This document shows, in pieces, positions 23,830 through 30,996 of a stretch of 64,000 nt of DNA. The notes beneath the pieces are model-generated. The model made no database searches. It was not told where the DNA came from and was given only the letters and a program-made list of their open reading frames with translations. The translations under genes and the position numbers were made by a program. Positions within the stretch are counted from its first letter, which is position 1. Each line of letters begins with the position of its first letter. This DNA is from Actinomycetes bacterium (lineage in GTDB: Bacteria; Actinomycetota; Acidimicrobiia; Acidimicrobiales; Ilumatobacteraceae), in contig JAKOUY010000023.1 in NCBI GenBank assembly GCA_029782355.1, positions 186,001 through 250,000 on the forward strand, written 5' to 3'.

Positions 23830-24306
23830 GTGGAGACCGTCTTCAACCTGCCGGCGCACGTGTTCTTCGTGCACGCCCCGCTCGTGCTCGTCCCCCTCGT
23901 CGCCGTCGGCTGCATCGTCCTGGCGGTCCGTCCGCGCTGGCAGGAGCGGGCCAACCCGTGGCTGCTCGGTGCGGCGGTGGTCGCCTTCGGCACCGTGCTG
24001 GCTGCCACCCAGAGTGGGGAGGCCTTCGACAGAGCGCTGCGGCGCAACCCCAACTTCGACGTCAGCGTCCGGCGCCACGCCGATCTGGCCGACACCACCC
24101 AGGTGATCACCTTCGTGATGGTCGCGCTGCTCGCCGTGGCGGTGGGGTCGGTGTGGTGGTCTCGCCGCAGCGAGCGACCGGTCTCGCCGGCCGTGCTGCG
24201 CGGCCTGTCGGCGGCTGCAGCGCTGGTCGGCGTGCTGGCCACCATCTGGATGGTCCGCACCGGCCACGAGGGTGCCCACCTAGTCTGGCAGGGAGTGCTC
24301 AAGTAG
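23830..24306 (+). CDS. DUF2231-type membrane protein
   Basis: A 158-residue protein with four hydrophobic segments (about 8-32, 45-62, 92-110, 126-146). The start ETVFNLPAHVFFVHAPLVLVPL, with HxxxVHxP, and the HADLADT segment between the second and third membrane helices match the DUF2231 family, whose members sit in the membrane and sometimes carry conserved histidines suited to haem or metals. No reaction is known. It is divergent from the cupredoxin gene and 49 nt upstream of the SWIM operon, which has its own -10 element. Confidence 0.75.
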   Translation: METVFNLPAHVFFVHAPLVLVPLVAVGCIVLAVRPRWQERANPWLLGAAVVAFGTVLAATQSGEAFDRALRRNPNFDVSVRRHADLADTTQVITFVMVALLAVAVGSVWWSRRSERPVSPAVLRGLSAAAALVGVLATIWMVRTGHEGAHLVWQGVLK

Positions 24307-24342: not shown

Positions 24343-24348
24343 TACGGT
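24343..24348 (+). promoter_or_regulatory. -10 element TACGGT of the SWIM-MoxR-VWA operon (predicted leaderless)
   Basis: TACGGT ends 7 nt before GTG 24356, the first gene of the five-gene operon. It is the only promoter-like element I see for these genes. Confidence 0.5.
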
Positions 24349-24355
24349 CGGGCGG

Positions 24356-25726
24356 GTGAGCGGTCCGGTGGTGTGGCAGGTCGAGCAGATCGCCGCGGTG
24401 GCTCCCTCGGCGGCGGCCTACGCCGCCGCCCAGCCCCTGGCGGTGGCGTCGCGGTGGTCCGGGACCGGGGTCGACGATCAGGCGCTGTGGGGTCGCTGCG
24501 GTGGGTCGGGGGCCGAGCCGTACGACGTGTTCGTCGACCACGTCGCTGCCCGCTTCGCCTGCTCGTGCCCCAGCCGGCAGGTGCCCTGCAAGCACGCCGT
24601 CGCCCTGCTGCTGGTGTGGGCACGCGGTGGCGTCGCCGCAGGGGTTCGCTCGGCAGCCGTCGACGAGTGGGTCCGCCGTGGCACGGCCGTTGTCGCCCGC
24701 CCGGACGAGGTCCGCCCGGCGCTCCCGGATCCGCAGGGATTGGTGGCCGTCACGGCCGATCCACCTGCTCCGCAGCGCGGTGACCGCGACGAGCGCGTCG
24801 CCCGGATGCGCGCCGGATTGGTCGAGCTGCGCCGCTGGCTCGGCGACCGGATGCGCACCGGGCTGTCCGACCCGGCGATGGCCCGCTTCGACACGTGGGA
24901 TCGCCTCGCCGCCCGGCTGGTCGATGCGCAGGTCGGCGGACTGGCCAACCGGGTCCGGCGGGTCGCCGGATTGGCCGGGGCCTCCGCCGACTGGCACCAG
25001 CAGGTCCTCGCCGAGTTGGGGATCCTCGACCTGCTGGCCGAAGCCGGGTTGCGGTTGGGTGAGCTCCCCGACGACCTCGCCGATTCGGTCGCCGTCGCGC
25101 TCGGGTGGCAGATCCGCCAGGCCAGCATCCTCGCCGGCGTTCCGGACACCGACCGGTGGCAGGTGCTCGGGCGCAGCGACACCCGGGAGGACCGCATCGA
25201 GGTCCGCCGGCTGTGGCTGCGCGGCGTGCAGTCCGGCGCGTGGGCCATGCTGCTGTCCTTCGCCGCCTACGGCCAGTCGCTGGACGGCTCCCTGCCGGTC
25301 GGTGCCGTGATCGATGGGGACCTGTACCGCTATCCGGGCCGATTGCGGTTGCGGGCCCTGCTCGGGTTGAGTTGCGGGGCACCGCAGTGGGGCGGTCCGC
25401 CGTCGGCCGTCACCGTCGCTCACGCCGTCGAGGAGGTCGGCCGCCAGGTCGCCGCCGAGCCGTGGATCGACCGGGTGCCGGTGTGCGTCGTGGCGGCCGT
25501 CGCCCCGGCTGCGGGGCGCTGGTGGCTCGTCGACGATCGCTCGATGGTGCCGCTCGATGCGCCCGGCGCCGTGGTGGCCACCCTCGCTGCGGCGGGGTCC
25601 GGTGAGATGGTCCCGACCACCTGCGAGTGGACGGCCAACGGGTTCGTCCCGCTCACCGTGCACCTCGCCGACCGGCACATCGACGTCGGTCGAGTGGCCG
25701 ACGCCTCGTTCGTGGGGGCGGCATGA
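24356..25726 (+). CDS. SWIM zinc-finger protein of the MoxR/VWA operon
   Basis: A 456-residue protein with a SWIM zinc-binding motif near the N-terminus: Cys69-x-Cys71, Cys78-x-His80 (FACSCPSRQVPCKHAVALL), the CxCx6CxH form. The rest (about 130-450) is helical with a final beta-type part and no known catalytic motif. SWIM modules bind DNA or protein. E. coli YehQ, also a SWIM protein, lies beside a MoxR and a VWA gene, and the same grouping here suggests a homologous role. The stop overlaps the next start (ATGA at 25723), so all five genes appear translationally coupled. Confidence 0.8.
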   Translation: MSGPVVWQVEQIAAVAPSAAAYAAAQPLAVASRWSGTGVDDQALWGRCGGSGAEPYDVFVDHVAARFACSCPSRQVPCKHAVALLLVWARGGVAAGVRSAAVDEWVRRGTAVVARPDEVRPALPDPQGLVAVTADPPAPQRGDRDERVARMRAGLVELRRWLGDRMRTGLSDPAMARFDTWDRLAARLVDAQVGGLANRVRRVAGLAGASADWHQQVLAELGILDLLAEAGLRLGELPDDLADSVAVALGWQIRQASILAGVPDTDRWQVLGRSDTREDRIEVRRLWLRGVQSGAWAMLLSFAAYGQSLDGSLPVGAVIDGDLYRYPGRLRLRALLGLSCGAPQWGGPPSAVTVAHAVEEVGRQVAAEPWIDRVPVCVVAAVAPAAGRWWLVDDRSMVPLDAPGAVVATLAAAGSGEMVPTTCEWTANGFVPLTVHLADRHIDVGRVADASFVGAA

Positions 25727-26517
25727 TCCAGCAGCACTGGGAGGAGCTGACCGCCGTCGCCCTGCTGGGAACGGACCGTCGCCCGCCACCGCCGGTGCCG
25801 GCGGGCCATCTGGCCGATCTCCTCGCCGACCTTGCCGCCCGGCACCCCGCGGCCGACCGCGCCGAGGTCCTGCTGCACCAGGTTGCCGCCACGACGGTGC
25901 TGCGCCGGGCAGCGCGCCTGCCCCGTCCGGCCACCGTCGCCCCGGCCGTTGTGGACCACGACTCGCGCCCGCCGACACCACCCGGTGCCGAGGGCGACTT
26001 CCGGCGGATCACCGCCGAGTTCCCGGCCATCGTCGGGGAGTGGCTGGAGGCCGTAGCGGCCGGCGGCTGGCGGCTCGGCGCCGAGCTGGTCGTGCCCGTC
26101 CTCGTGCACACGCGCCGCGATCCGACCCTGGCCGAGCTCGCCCACCGCGTCGCCGGGCCGGTGGCCGCCTGGCTCGTCCAGACCTGGCCCGGACTGGCGC
26201 CGCGGCCCGCCGGGCGCCGACCTGCTCCAACGGACGATCCGCTGCCGGTCACGCCGGAGCTCGCCGTGGTGTGTGGCCGCCCACCGGGGGACTGCGCCGC
26301 GGCGCTGGCGGCCATGTTCCGGGCCGGCACCGTCAGCACCGCCCAGCGAGCCATGCTGATCAACCTCGTGGCCCGGTTGCCACGGCCGTCCCTGCTGCCC
26401 GTGGCTAGGGCCCTCGACACGGTCGACGGCTCGCCGGCCGTCCTCGGGTTGGCCGCCCACCTCGCCGCGCTGGCCCGGCTGCGTCAGCGGGCCCTCACCG
26501 AACTGGACCCCCGATGA
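25723..26517 (+). CDS. DUF5691-like protein of the MoxR/VWA operon
   Basis: A 264-residue soluble protein. It opens with WEELTAVALLGTDRRPPP, the usual start of DUF5691 proteins that are seen beside SWIM and MoxR genes, and continues as an arginine/alanine-rich helical protein without recognisable catalytic residues. It has no signal peptide. ATG 25723 overlaps the SWIM stop and its own stop overlaps the MoxR start (ATGA at 26514). Family membership is my recollection of the N-terminal motif, and function is unknown. Confidence 0.65.
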   Translation: MIQQHWEELTAVALLGTDRRPPPPVPAGHLADLLADLAARHPAADRAEVLLHQVAATTVLRRAARLPRPATVAPAVVDHDSRPPTPPGAEGDFRRITAEFPAIVGEWLEAVAAGGWRLGAELVVPVLVHTRRDPTLAELAHRVAGPVAAWLVQTWPGLAPRPAGRRPAPTDDPLPVTPELAVVCGRPPGDCAAALAAMFRAGTVSTAQRAMLINLVARLPRPSLLPVARALDTVDGSPAVLGLAAHLAALARLRQRALTELDPR

Positions 26518-27632
26518 TCGATCCGCCTGAGCCCACCTCCCCCGCGGTGCTGCGCCCGCACGCCGAGCAGCAGTACGCCGCCGAGTTGGCCGCCCTGGCC
26601 GCAGCGGACACCCGCCCCCGTCCGACCACCTGGCGGCTCTCACCGTGGGCCGTGGTCACCTATGTCCTCGGCGGCACGCTGGCGGACGGGACGGTGATCA
26701 CCCCGAAGTACGTCGGCCAGCGGCGCCTGGTGGAGATCGCCGTGGCCACCCTGGTCACCGATCGAGCCCTGCTCCTGCTCGGCGTGCCCGGCACGGCCAA
26801 GACGTGGCTCAGCGAGCACCTCGCTGCGGCCATCAGCGGTGACTCCACGCTGCTGGTCCAGGGGACGGCGGGGACTGCCGAGGAGGCGCTGCGCTACGGC
26901 TGGAACTACGCCCGGCTGCTGGCCGAGGGACCGTCACCGGCGGCGCTGGTCGAGAGCCCGGTGCTGCGAGCCATGCGCCGCGGCTCGATCGTGCGCGTCG
27001 AGGAGCTGACCCGTATGCCGGGCGACGTGCAGGACGCCCTCGTCACGGTGCTCAGCGAGAAGACGCTGCCGATCCACGAGCTGGGCAGCGAGGTCCAGGC
27101 TGCGCCGGGCTTCAACCTGATCGCCACTGCCAACGACCGCGATCGCGGCGTCAACGATCTCTCCGCCGCCCTGCGGCGGCGGTTCAACACGGTCGTGCTC
27201 CCCCTGCCGGCCGATGCCGACGAGGAGGTCGGCATCGTCGCCCGGCGGGTGGCCGAGCTCGGCGAGTCGCTGCACTGGCCCGTGGCCCCTGCCGGCAGCG
27301 AGGAGATCCGCCGGGTGGTCACCGTGTTCCGGGAACTGCGCGCCGGGCGCACCGCCGACGGGATGACCGCCCTGAAGGTGCCGAGCGGTTCGCTGAGCAC
27401 GGCCGAGGCCATCTCGGTGGTGTCCAGCGGGCTGGCGCTCGCCGCCCACTTCGGGTCCGGCCGGCTGACCGACGACGACCTCGCCGCCGGCGTGGTCGGG
27501 GCGGTCGTCAAGGATCCGGTCCAGGACCGCATCGCCTGGAACGAGTACCTCGAGGCCGTCGTCCGCCACCGTGCCGAGTGGGGAGCGTTCTACGACGCCT
27601 GCCGGGCGCTGGACGGGGGCAGCGGCGGGTGA
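26514..27632 (+). CDS. MoxR-family AAA+ ATPase (YehL-like)
   Basis: A 372-residue AAA+ ATPase. Walker A is GVPGTAKT (residues 90-97), the Walker B region is IVRVEELTRMPGDVQDALVTVLSEK, sensor 1 is LIATANDRDRGVNDLSAALRRRFN including the arginine-finger region. MoxR ATPases work with VWA proteins as chaperones that remodel or insert metals in protein complexes. Walker B ends in EE rather than the common DE, as in part of this subfamily. The gene is coupled on both sides (ATGA and GTGA), and the VWA partner is two genes downstream. Confidence 0.9.
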   Translation: MIDPPEPTSPAVLRPHAEQQYAAELAALAAADTRPRPTTWRLSPWAVVTYVLGGTLADGTVITPKYVGQRRLVEIAVATLVTDRALLLLGVPGTAKTWLSEHLAAAISGDSTLLVQGTAGTAEEALRYGWNYARLLAEGPSPAALVESPVLRAMRRGSIVRVEELTRMPGDVQDALVTVLSEKTLPIHELGSEVQAAPGFNLIATANDRDRGVNDLSAALRRRFNTVVLPLPADADEEVGIVARRVAELGESLHWPVAPAGSEEIRRVVTVFRELRAGRTADGMTALKVPSGSLSTAEAISVVSSGLALAAHFGSGRLTDDDLAAGVVGAVVKDPVQDRIAWNEYLEAVVRHRAEWGAFYDACRALDGGSGG

Positions 27633-29809
27633 TCCACCGGTTCGGCATCCGCCATCACGGGCCGGGTTCGGCTCGTTCGGTGGTCGCCGCGCTGGACGAG
27701 GTCCAGCCCGACGTGGTCGCCGTGGAGTTGCCGGCGGACACGGAGCGAGCCCTGGCGTGGGTGGCGGCCGCCGACCTCGAGCCACCGGTGGCATTGCTCG
27801 GCCACGTCGTCGGGCAGCCCCATCGGGCGGCCTTCCTGCCCCTGGCCGAGTTCAGCCCGGAATGGCAGGCCATGCGCTGGGCCGCGGCGCATCAGCGCCG
27901 GGTGATCCCCATCGATCTGTCGCTCGCCCACCTGCTGGCCGGTGACGAGCCGGCGCTGCTCGACGAGCAGGCCCCCGTCGACCCGCTGGGCGAGTTGGCC
28001 GCCGCGGCGGGCGACGCCGATGCCGAGCGGTGGTGGGACGACGTCGTCGAGCATCGCGGTGGCGGGCTGGCGGCCTTCGATGCGGTGGCCGAGGCGATGA
28101 CGGCGGTGCGCGCCGGCCGAGACATCGGCTGGCTGGACGCCCGCCGGGAGGCCGCCATGCGCCAGGCGCTGCGGGCGGTGTGCACCGAGGCGCCGACGGT
28201 GGCGGTGGTCTGCGGAGCGTGGCACGTTCCCGCGCTGGGTGAGCCGTGGCCGCCGGCCAGGCAGGACGCCGCGCTGCTGCGCGGCCTCCCGAAGGTCAAG
28301 GTGGGCATCAGCTGGGTGCCGTGGAGCCATCGTCGCCTGGCGGCCGCGTCCGGGTACGGAGCCGGTGTGGTCAGCCCAGGGTGGTACGCCCACGTCTTCG
28401 CCCATCCCGGCGATCACGGGCGGGCCCGATGGTTCGTCCAGGCCGCCCGACTGCTGCGCTCGAGAGGCATGCAGGCGTCGCCCGACCACCTCATCGCCGC
28501 CACTCGCGCCGCGGTGTCGCTGGCTGCGCTGCGCGCCCGGCCGGCACCGGGGCTGGCCGAGGTGCTCGATGCAGCGGAGGCGGTGATGGCCGGGAGCGGG
28601 GGGATCGGCCTGATCGTCGACCAGTTGGTCGTCGGCGATGCCATCGGCTCGGTCCCGGCCGACGCTCCGCAGGTGCCGCTGGCCGCCGACATCAACGCCA
28701 CGATGCGCACGCTGCGGCTGAAACCGGGCAGCGGCCCGACCGTCGAGCTGGATCTCCGCACCGCGTCCGGGCGCGGTCGCTCCGTGTTCCTCCATCGGTT
28801 GCGGGCGCTCGGGGTGCGCTGGGGCACGGTCGCCGAGGGCCGTGGCTCGTCGGGGACGTTCCGCGAGACGTGGACGCTGTCGTGGCATCCCGAGTTCGCC
28901 ATCCAGGTGGTCGAGGCCGCCGCGGCCGGCACCACGGTGGCCGCCGCGGCCGCCGCCCGGCTCACCGAGGCGGTGGCGGCCGCCACGGCCCCGGCCGACC
29001 TGATCGCCTGCCTGGAGGACGCGCTGCTGGCGGATCTGCCCGGTGTCGTCGAGCCGGCGGTGGCCCGCCTCGCCGACGCCGCCGCCGGGGACCCCGACGT
29101 GAACCAGGTGATGGACGCAGTGGTGCCGCTGGCCCGCACGCTGCGCTACGGCGATGTGCGCGCCACGCAGGTCGCGTCGCTGCGCGTCGCCTTCGACGGG
29201 CTGGTCGTGCGAGTCCTGGCCGGCGCGGTTGCCGCCTGTCGCGGCCTCGACGAGGACCACGCTGCGGCGATGGTCGAGCGGCTCGCTGCGGTGCAGGGCG
29301 CCCTGGCCTTGATCGACCATCCCGCCCGCGGCCTGGCCTGGCCGGCCGTGCTGGCCGAGCTGGCTGGGCGCAGCGACGCGCACGGGCTGATCGCCGGGCG
29401 GGCGACGCGCTTGCTGCACGATGCCGACACCTGGGTGGCCGACGAGGTGCGCGGGTCGTTCTCCCGGGCGCTGTCCGTCGGCACCGCCCCGTCGCGTGGC
29501 GCGGCGTTCGTCGAGGGGTTCCTCGCTGGCAGTGGCACGGTGCTGCTGCATGACCGAGCCCTGCTGGAGCTGATCGACGACTGGCTGTGCGGGCTGACGG
29601 CCGATGCCTTCCAGAACACCGTCGCCTTGCTGCGCCGGACGTTCGGCGGGTTCGCCCCGGCCGAACGCCGCCAGCTCGGCGAGTTGCTCCGCCGGGGTTC
29701 GCTGGAGCGCGCCGACGCGTTCGCCGACGACCTCGACCCCGTCACGGCAACCCGGGCGATGGAGACCGTGCGATGGATGCTGGGCGCCACGCCGGCGGAT
29801 CGCTCATGA
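27629..29809 (+). CDS. DUF5682 protein (YehM-like) with a predicted TraB/EreA-type N-terminal domain
   Basis: A 726-residue soluble protein. The first 300 residues show the order of motifs typical of the TraB/TIKI/erythromycin-esterase fold: GIRHHGPGSAR (GxxH, His9), PDVVAVELPADTERAL (Glu33, Arg40), VIPIDLS (Asp96) and VCGAWHVPAL (His199). That could form a metal or hydrolase site. The remainder is helical, rich in alanine and leucine. E. coli YehM belongs to the same family and also lies between a MoxR and a VWA gene. The fold assignment is my inference from motif order. Start GTG 27629 overlaps the MoxR stop. Confidence 0.72.
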   Translation: MIHRFGIRHHGPGSARSVVAALDEVQPDVVAVELPADTERALAWVAAADLEPPVALLGHVVGQPHRAAFLPLAEFSPEWQAMRWAAAHQRRVIPIDLSLAHLLAGDEPALLDEQAPVDPLGELAAAAGDADAERWWDDVVEHRGGGLAAFDAVAEAMTAVRAGRDIGWLDARREAAMRQALRAVCTEAPTVAVVCGAWHVPALGEPWPPARQDAALLRGLPKVKVGISWVPWSHRRLAAASGYGAGVVSPGWYAHVFAHPGDHGRARWFVQAARLLRSRGMQASPDHLIAATRAAVSLAALRARPAPGLAEVLDAAEAVMAGSGGIGLIVDQLVVGDAIGSVPADAPQVPLAADINATMRTLRLKPGSGPTVELDLRTASGRGRSVFLHRLRALGVRWGTVAEGRGSSGTFRETWTLSWHPEFAIQVVEAAAAGTTVAAAAAARLTEAVAAATAPADLIACLEDALLADLPGVVEPAVARLADAAAGDPDVNQVMDAVVPLARTLRYGDVRATQVASLRVAFDGLVVRVLAGAVAACRGLDEDHAAAMVERLAAVQGALALIDHPARGLAWPAVLAELAGRSDAHGLIAGRATRLLHDADTWVADEVRGSFSRALSVGTAPSRGAAFVEGFLAGSGTVLLHDRALLELIDDWLCGLTADAFQNTVALLRRTFGGFAPAERRQLGELLRRGSLERADAFADDLDPVTATRAMETVRWMLGATPADRS

Positions 29810-30996
29810 GCCGGGTCAGCGAGTGGGAGCGTGACCGCCGCTGGCGACTGGTCCTCGGCGCCGAGGCGGAGGACGCCGACGGCCAGCGCGCCGCGGCGGC
29901 CGGGTTGTCGGTCGACGACCGTCGGCTGGACGGTGCTCTCGGAGCGCTCTACGACCAGCGCCCCGCCGGCAGCGGGCGATCGCGCGGCGGGGGGCTGGGT
30001 GCCTCGAAGCCAGCCGTGGCCCGCTGGTTGGGCGACATCCGCCGCTACTTCCCGGCGTCGGTGGTCCAGGTGTTGCAGCGCGACGCGATCGAGCGTCTCG
30101 ACCTCCGCCAGTTGCTGTTCGAGCCGGAGCTGCTCGCCGGCGTGCAGCCCGACGTGCACCTCGCCGCCCTGCTGGTCGAGCTCAACCGGCTGTTGCCCGA
30201 CGAGACCCGGGCGACCGCTCGCCAGGTGGTCCGCACGGTCGTCGACCAGCTCACCGAGCGCCTGGCCGAGCGCACCCGCCAGGCCACGTTGGGCGCGCTG
30301 GCCCGGTCGCAGCGATCGCGCCGGCCACGCCCGGCCGACATCGACTGGTTGCACACGGTGCAGGCCAACCTGGCCCACTATCAGCCGCAGTACCGCACGG
30401 TGATCCCGGAGCGCCTGGTCGGGTACGGCCGCCGGCAGCGCAGCCTGGCCCGTGATGTGGTGGTGGCCATCGACCAGAGCGGGAGCATGGCCGACTCGGT
30501 GGTCTACGCCGGCGTGTTCGGCTCGGTGCTCGCCGCACTGCCCGCCCTGCGAACCGCCGTGATCGGCTTCGACACCGAGGTCACCGACCTCACGGCGCTG
30601 GCGGCCGATCCGGTGGACGTCCTGTTCGGGGTGCAGCTCGGCGGAGGCACCGACATCGCCCGCGCCCTCGGCTACTGCCAGCAGCTGGTCACCCGGCCCA
30701 CCGAGACCGTCGTGGTCCTGGTCTCCGACCTGTTCGAGGGTGGCGATGTCCGGCTGCTCGAGGCCCGCGCCGCCGCGCTGGTGCGCGCCGGCGTGACCGT
30801 CGTGGCCCTGGTGACGCTGAGCGACGACGGTGCGCCGGCGTACGACCACGGCCAGGTCCAGCGCTTCGCCGCGCTGGGCATCCCCAGCCTGGCGTGCACG
30901 CCGGATGCCTTCCCGGACCTGTTCGCCGCGGCGCTCGAGCGGCGGGAGCTGATCGGGTGGGCGGACGCTCGACCAGGCGTCGTCGCCGTGCACTGA
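29806..30996 (+). CDS. VWA-domain protein of the MoxR operon (YehP-like)
   Basis: A 396-residue protein with a long helical N-terminal region (about 1-210) and a C-terminal von Willebrand A domain. The metal-ion-dependent adhesion site is complete: DQSGS (Asp223, Ser225, Ser227), the threonine in GGGTDIARAL and the aspartate in LVSDLFEGG. VWA proteins of this type bind partners through the metal and act with MoxR ATPases. There is no signal peptide, so it acts inside the cell. It is the last gene of the coupled operon, starting in the DUF5682 stop (ATGA). Confidence 0.88.
   Translation: MSRVSEWERDRRWRLVLGAEAEDADGQRAAAAGLSVDDRRLDGALGALYDQRPAGSGRSRGGGLGASKPAVARWLGDIRRYFPASVVQVLQRDAIERLDLRQLLFEPELLAGVQPDVHLAALLVELNRLLPDETRATARQVVRTVVDQLTERLAERTRQATLGALARSQRSRRPRPADIDWLHTVQANLAHYQPQYRTVIPERLVGYGRRQRSLARDVVVAIDQSGSMADSVVYAGVFGSVLAALPALRTAVIGFDTEVTDLTALAADPVDVLFGVQLGGGTDIARALGYCQQLVTRPTETVVVLVSDLFEGGDVRLLEARAAALVRAGVTVVALVTLSDDGAPAYDHGQVQRFAALGIPSLACTPDAFPDLFAAALERRELIGWADARPGVVAVH

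Follow-up and report, generated by a model that had tools for sequence, protein, structure and literature searches.

What do five overlapping genes do together in an Actinomycetes bacterium of the family Ilumatobacteraceae, and what do they share with the yeh cluster of Escherichia coli, for which our literature search turned up no role in the accessible parts of the papers? The genes lie at 24356-30996 (+) of a stretch of 64,000 nucleotides (GenBank assembly GCA_029782355.1, contig JAKOUY010000023.1, positions 186,001 to 250,000), the whole of which is called the window here. They are five co-directional open reading frames (ORFs), which encode, in order, a SWIM zinc-finger protein, a DUF5691 protein, a MoxR-type AAA+ adenosine triphosphatase (ATPase), a DUF5682 protein and a CoxE-type VWA protein. 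We propose that the five genes specify a dedicated MoxR-VWA remodelling machine, with a hydrolase of the TIKI/TraB superfamily as its constant partner and the SWIM and DUF5691 proteins as adaptors, and we put the probability of this reading at about 0.5.

The four junctions overlap, in gene order, by ATGA, ATGA, GTGA and ATGA, and each gene has a Pfam match (E-values in the list below), so that the overlapping five-gene unit described in the original prediction was recovered at its place; an NCBIfam scan of the five proteins gave no family above cut-off. The genes and their motifs are as follows, the counts of aligned rows being explained further on.

24356..25726 (+): SWIM zinc-finger protein, 456 amino acids, likely adaptor (Pfam SWIM, 4.7e-5)
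24560..24595 (+): SWIM motif CxCx6CxH, read from the sequence
25723..26517 (+): DUF5691 protein, short form of 264 amino acids, one unit of about 200 amino acids (Pfam DUF5691, 2.2e-19)
26514..27632 (+): MoxR AAA+ ATPase of the YehL subfamily, grouping with E. coli YehL (AAA_5, 6.8e-37)
26781..26804 (+): Walker A motif GVPGTAKT (pattern in 89 of 90 MoxR rows)
26988..27008 (+): Walker B region IVRVEEL, with EE for DE, from pattern comparison
27629..29809 (+): DUF5682 protein with a GTG start, 726 amino acids, predicted TIKI-fold domain and helical region (Pfam DUF5682, 1.1e-219)
27629..28363 (+): putative TIKI/TraB-type hydrolase domain, residues 1-245, from fold, profile and signature
27653..27658 (+): H9-H10 in the first GxxH motif, GIRHH (86 of 86 rows and 9 extra rows)
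27725..27727 (+): E33, candidate partner of H9 (86 of 86 rows and 9 extra rows)
28145..28147 (+): R173, conserved basic residue (86 of 86 rows and 9 extra rows)
28223..28225 (+): H199 in the second GxxH motif, GAWH (86 of 86 rows, partly by construction, and 9 extra rows)
28787..29806 (+): helical solenoid-like part, residues 387-726 (DSSP of the model; ARM/HEAT-like matches)
29806..30996 (+): VWA protein of CoxE type, 396 amino acids, putative MoxR co-chaperone (VWA_CoxE, 6.8e-48)
30472..30486 (+): metal ion-dependent adhesion site (MIDAS) motif DQSGS (DxSxS), read from the sequence

A scan with one genome per species found at least 579 stretches encoding DUF5682 relatives. The best 80 were taken with flanks of up to 10 kb, a sample that leans towards the arrangement of the window (type A), and together with the E. 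coli locus and the window they gave 82 loci, which were searched with iterated profiles. Near DUF5682, the SWIM gene was present in 71 loci, DUF5691 in 72, MoxR in 77 and VWA in 78, and all five genes were found together in 70 of the 82. By ORF positions, 61 of these complete loci lie on a single strand in the window order, and nine, from Streptomyces and close genera, have SWIM and DUF5691 inverted. Seven of the 12 incomplete loci run into a contig end (L029, L030, L035, L053, L056, L102 and L106), and five are without a gene where the locus is visible, namely E. coli and the cyanobacterial L039, L043, L062 and L063. DUF5691 is encoded elsewhere in the assembly in three of these four cyanobacteria, and L043 and L062 are also cut upstream. 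The loci come from seven phyla (Actinomycetota, Cyanobacteriota, Verrucomicrobiota, Planctomycetota, Bacteroidota, Pseudomonadota and Chloroflexota), and both DUF5691 and DUF5682 matched in Deinobacterium, of an eighth. Because the same genes stand in the same order in distant phyla, the five-gene unit is far beyond chance; the genomes are not independent, and hence counts are given and no P-value. No other neighbour family recurred in more than 11 of the 82 loci (families were counted without naming), and much of that recurrence was synteny of the Streptomyces group.

Three other architectures were seen besides type A, which is SWIM-DUF5691-MoxR-DUF5682-VWA. Type B, DUF4132-MoxR-DUF5682-VWA, occurs in E. 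coli and L149-L151; its DUF4132 gene was recognized by Pfam in E. coli and L149 and by similarity to YehI in L150 and L151, and 3' of the four genes E. coli has a SWIM gene, L151 a YehQ relative that Pfam did not match to SWIM, and L150 a weak match to YehQ. Type C (L152, L153 and L158) has MoxR followed by a fusion of DUF5682 and VWA, and type D (L154-L157) reads VWA-MoxR-DUF5682; type B is represented by 4 loci, type C by 3 and type D by 4. MoxR, DUF5682 and VWA are shared across the four architectures, apart from the cyanobacterial exceptions, and hence form the core, while the other genes vary. In E. coli, Pfam identified YehL as AAA_5, YehM as DUF5682 (2.4e-98), YehP as VWA_CoxE and YehQ as SWIM, which bears out the comparison with the yeh genes made in the original prediction.

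Two gene fusions bear on how the products may be arranged. The DUF5682-VWA fusion, present in all three type C loci, suggests that VWA and DUF5682 touch, and the fusion of SWIM and DUF5691 in one frame, found in 10 of the 80 survey loci, all 10 with the window gene order, suggests that both act as one adaptor. Two large genomes, G063 and G195 (L152-L155, L019 and L023), each hold types A, C and D together, and three DUF5682 systems in one genome suggest different substrates. A large conserved ORF lies upstream of MoxR in type C (L152 1387-7458, L153 2451-7523 and L158 13258-18144), of 1629-2024 amino acids from stop to stop and 44-71% identity, with LPDPTDRN conserved in its C-terminal part. 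Pfam gave no match on the two of these ORFs that were searched, and a profile of all three gave none with YehI, SWIM or DUF5691.

The association was also examined in the reverse direction. Of 41 relatives, 13 had DUF5691 above cut-off, as had 18 of 296 genomes of the phylum, and DUF5682 was found in every one of these; three genomes (G088, G188 and G221) have DUF5691 matches below the cut-off (E 1e-4 to 8e-4) and no DUF5682. DUF5682 was found without DUF5691 in two of the 41 relatives (G032 and G040) and three of the 296 (G160, G238 and G292). Among these, G040 and G160 are of type B and G238 has types C and D, the DUF5682 of G292 sits on a contig of only 4,385 bases, and that of G032 is a weak partial match. 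The five genes thus do occur together, and they are inherited as a unit.

DUF5682, which the original prediction had called a possible hydrolase, was then considered by structure. The model of the full-length protein, with a predicted local distance difference test (pLDDT) value of 89.7, has an alpha/beta N-terminal domain followed by a mostly helical region, and residues 387-726, about half of the protein, match ARM/HEAT-like helical solenoids. Since this helical region filled the list of the full-length fold search, in which no E-value fell below 0.001, the N-terminal domain was folded alone (pLDDT 87). Foldseek then placed a Tetrahymena complex IV subunit, HopBA1 and EreC in the top ranks (E 0.015-0.047). 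In VIA-align, the first 16 rows had Z 9.7-5.8, and the next row, which is unrelated, had 5.2; ChaN (8.7), HopBA1 (8.1), EreC (7.2), Bcr135 (6.7), PMT (6.5) and RRSP (5.8) are among the 16, as are three Tetrahymena complex IV entries and proteins named for succinoglycan biosynthesis that resemble Bcr135. In the part of PMC6254334 that was available, the folds of PMT, HopBA1, Bcr135, ChaN and RRSP are assigned to the TIKI superfamily, and the Ere enzymes are said to have the same mechanism. The best structural match of the domain is PDB 7w5z_E, a subunit of the Tetrahymena mitochondrial complex IV.

The conserved residues of the domain resemble those of TraB. An alignment of 24 TraB rows has six invariant positions (G8, H11, E35, R182, G207 and H210), and their counterparts in DUF5682 are G6, H9, E33, R173, G196 and H199, with nearly the same spacing. 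Throughout 86 rows of types A-D, with an identity of only 23-36% between the window row and types B-D, residues H9, H10, E33, E78, D96, E141, R161, R173, E174, G196 and H199 are invariant, in part by construction for G196 and H199, as the rows were cut at the motif G[AGC][WF]H. Nine type A rows that were missed by this cut keep GxxHH, the Glu, REAxM and GAxH, and H199 is also invariant in a separate 58-row alignment of DUF5682; L030, which is without the DUF5682 N-terminus, stands outside the signature count. A profile of the N-terminal domain from types A-D matched five TraB-type rows with a probability of 95.6 (P 1.3e-8) over 200 columns, and controls against MoxR, VWA, SWIM and DUF5691 reached at most 0.6. 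The first comparison, with mostly type A rows, had given P 0.0028 over 38 columns, and the match became clearer because types B-D were added and the profile was cut to the N-terminal domain. A sequence search of solved structures (query A2) gave no match. In the 2His/2Glu motif of Ere and RRSP, one Glu stands two positions before the first His and is needed in RRSP, according to the accessible part of PMC6254334; because this Glu is missing from DUF5682, the likeness is to the TraB branch. By modelled fold, profile and His-Glu-Arg-His signature, the N-terminal third of DUF5682 and YehM is predicted to be a domain of the TIKI/TraB/erythromycin-esterase type, with fold and polar signature present in all four architectures, and the possible hydrolase is thereby narrowed to one superfamily.

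The motor protein belongs with YehL, a named MoxR subfamily in the portions seen of PMC3893208 and PMC11432383. Among 90 MoxR rows, Walker A was matched in 89 and, by lax patterns, the sensor-1 Asn in 89 and the Arg finger in 88; the misses are L106, whose ORF runs off its contig, in all three patterns, and L036 in the Arg finger. The DE pattern of Walker B was matched in none of the 90 rows of the group, E. coli YehL included. A second Walker B pattern read EE in 81 of 89 rows, the rest being five PE, two AE and one without a match, and the one PE row inspected had an off-target match adjoining a visible EE. The earlier claim of intact ATPase motifs has to be qualified at Walker B, which reads EE and not DE. 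In the MoxR tree, rows of all four architectures and E. coli YehL form one group (support 93/92), and neither type A nor type B is a single clade within it; the outgroup consisted of four other MoxR-like rows from the window's genome only, RavA having been dropped because it had no usable match. The same genome (G000) has at least two more neighbouring pairs of AAA_5 and VWA_CoxE genes, at C13:36538-38432 (L177/L180) and C19:95449-97079 (L169/L183), which are distant in sequence from the MoxR group of the operon.

DxSxS is kept in 91 of 93 VWA rows, and the CxC...CxH pattern is present in 73 of 76 SWIM rows, the other three being short or N-terminally truncated ORFs. The DUF5691 protein of the window covers only positions 1-147 of the 491-position Pfam model, and among the 12 further relatives with a DUF5691 match, coverage of the model reaches no further than position 113-210. 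Many full-length homologues match a profile of about 200 positions twice (second copy down to 1e-20), and hence DUF5691 looks like a tandem duplication, of which the window protein is a single unit.

As for the importance of the system to the cell, the operon is present in 13 of 25 genomes of the window's family (2.4-6.2 Mb); 11 of the 12 genomes without it are of 1.5-2.8 Mb, and the twelfth is of 4.2 Mb and 76% complete. Of 5426 E. coli genomes, 5284 (about 97%) carry yehM, at a median of one place, and two of 5291 places were on plasmids. No relative came up when viral contigs were scanned by pattern, and 31 of 72,556 plasmid records held one. Such a distribution does not fit a mobile defence island. 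E. coli DGF-298 is deleted for yehI-yehQ, as given in the accessible part of PMC10652928. An IS5-family transposase is annotated within the yehM match of E. coli NZ_CP137737.1, another sign that the gene is dispensable. The function is a conserved cellular one, dispensable in the cases seen.

How such a machine might work can be outlined. The MoxR protein of the YehL subfamily would form an ATPase ring, which the VWA protein would bridge to DUF5682 via its MIDAS site. Turnover of adenosine triphosphate (ATP) would load, open or release the TIKI-fold hydrolase, the motor would probably switch the hydrolase, and the SWIM protein and DUF5691 would choose or present the substrate. The bond hydrolysed would most likely be a peptide bond, an ester or a similar one.

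Several points weigh against this proposal. The ring, the contacts, the complex, catalysis and the substrate are what we infer. Some cyanobacteria have DUF5682 without MoxR or VWA alongside. The Walker B EE lowers the case for a canonical ATPase, though not the kinship with YehL, and in the MoxR tree the outgroup branches are long and the support of 93/92 lies just below the program's mark. The Foldseek E-values are weak (best 0.015), and the note that comes with VIA-align rates its Z values of 6-9 as middling. Two type B and all four type D rows have lost the first Gly of the first GxxH, with the His kept, and the Glu of the Ere/RRSP type is absent, residue 7 being Ile. Compared with all 24 TraB/GumN rows, the profile of the domain aligns locally over 40 columns (85.6%, P 5.6e-6), and against GumN-type rows alone there was no real match (4.6). 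Finally, four MoxR-vWA ternary systems have been proposed as conflict systems in the part of PMC7159879 that was available.

Alternatively, the operon may be a maturation factor, in which MoxR-VWA fits a client with a metal or cofactor, in the manner of CoxD-CoxE and NorQ-NorD, and DUF5682 is the client or a ChaN-like carrier of metal or haem. The CoxE type of the VWA protein would suit this, as would ChaN, a haem binder, among the fold matches of the N-terminal domain, and complex maturation and cofactor insertion are known roles of MoxR families (PMC3893208; PMC11432383, both as far as accessible). We regard it as doubtful because the invariant residues stand at the positions of catalytic ones in TIKI hydrolases and because no other neighbour family recurred in more than 11 of the 82 loci, although those families were counted without naming and a client need not adjoin. 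A pure chaperone scaffold, with the TIKI domain as a dead enzyme that holds partners while the complex remodels a protein chosen by SWIM and DUF5691, finds a precedent in PMT, described in the available part of PMC6254334 as a TIKI domain without the catalytic motif, and about half of DUF5682 does resemble helical scaffolds; polar residues invariant in every one of the 86 rows at such low identity would be unusual for a dead enzyme, and this explanation seems rather improbable. Finally, an anti-phage conflict system of the MoxR-vWA ternary kind, which the proposals in PMC7159879 and a window MoxR narrowly above the bpMoxR cut-off (28.3 against 27) might favour, is very improbable, as PADLOC gave no system match and only two weak ATPase matches on MoxR (E 0.008-0.009), Pfam found neither FtsH nor a propeller or effector domain on the five proteins, the pattern scan of viral contigs gave no relative, and defence is unlikely for a gene as widespread in E. 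coli, and as rarely on plasmids, as yehM.

The remodelling machine with a TIKI-type partner has a bolder form, which we consider unlikely: a new ATP-driven hydrolytic machine and, at the boldest, an ATP-dependent protease. In it, a MoxR ring and VWA linker would feed a solenoid-borne TIKI-fold peptidase, and the choice of substrate would lie with exchangeable adaptors (SWIM/DUF5691 or DUF4132/SWIM), in at least seven phyla and in the core genome of E. coli. With YehM taken as a TIKI-fold hydrolase inside a core whose partners can be exchanged, there is a concrete active site and a definable complex, and an operon of 'function unknown' becomes testable. If true, the MoxR-VWA motors would gain a hydrolase output and the TIKI superfamily a branch driven by a motor.

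The start of the operon was also considered. The single -10 element claimed in front of the first gene corresponds to TACGGT at 24343..24348 (+), a possible and weak TANNNT element 7 nucleotides upstream of the GTG start of the SWIM gene. It is the sole TANNNT fit, and a leaderless transcript would agree with its position. No site was found between 24100 and 31200 in a sigma-70 scan, and the promoter evidence is therefore weak. A same-strand ORF of 158 amino acids, hydrophobic in appearance (23830-24306), stops 49 bases upstream of the operon start.

With regard to known systems, the novelty that had been claimed has to be narrowed at YehL, which already has its name as a subfamily (PMC3893208), and it stands in that no paper naming DUF5682 or DUF5691 was found in a search that left most subscription papers outside. 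In the accessible text of PMC10910872, MoxR, SWIM and vWA appear only in other contexts. According to the parts seen of PMC3893208, PMC7159879 and PMC11432383, known MoxR ATPases and VWA partners remodel or mature protein complexes. RavA-ViaA, CoxD-CoxE and NorQ-NorD share with the operon a MoxR ATPase and a VWA partner, as described in the accessible portions of the papers, whereas RavA has no meaningful score with the profile of the operon's MoxR group (4 bits). The MoxR-vWA ternary systems (VMAP, iSTAND, FtsH and beta-propeller; PMC7159879, in part) likewise combine MoxR, VWA and a third constant component, but here that component is DUF5682 and the system is core in E. coli. TraB, SWIM, YehL and YehP were not found in the main text of that paper, and Pfam gave no VMAP or iSTAND match on the five proteins, the library's models for these two being unchecked.

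The closest likeness in gene content is that to E. coli yehI-yehL-yehM-yehP-yehQ, which unites MoxR, DUF5682, VWA_CoxE and SWIM in one cluster and whose YehL falls in the same MoxR group. The two differ in that DUF4132 (YehI) adjoins and DUF5691 is absent in E. coli, and SWIM comes last there and first in the window; the match of YehQ to the window-type SWIM profile is marginal and confined to the surroundings of the zinc motif. With the TIKI superfamily (TraB/PrgY, EreC, ChaN, HopBA1 and RRSP), DUF5682 appears to share the core fold and, with TraB, the GxxH-E-R-GxxH signature. It differs from Ere and RRSP in having no ExH glutamate, and from the superfamily at large in being joined to a helical solenoid-like region and in standing in gene context with an AAA+ motor.

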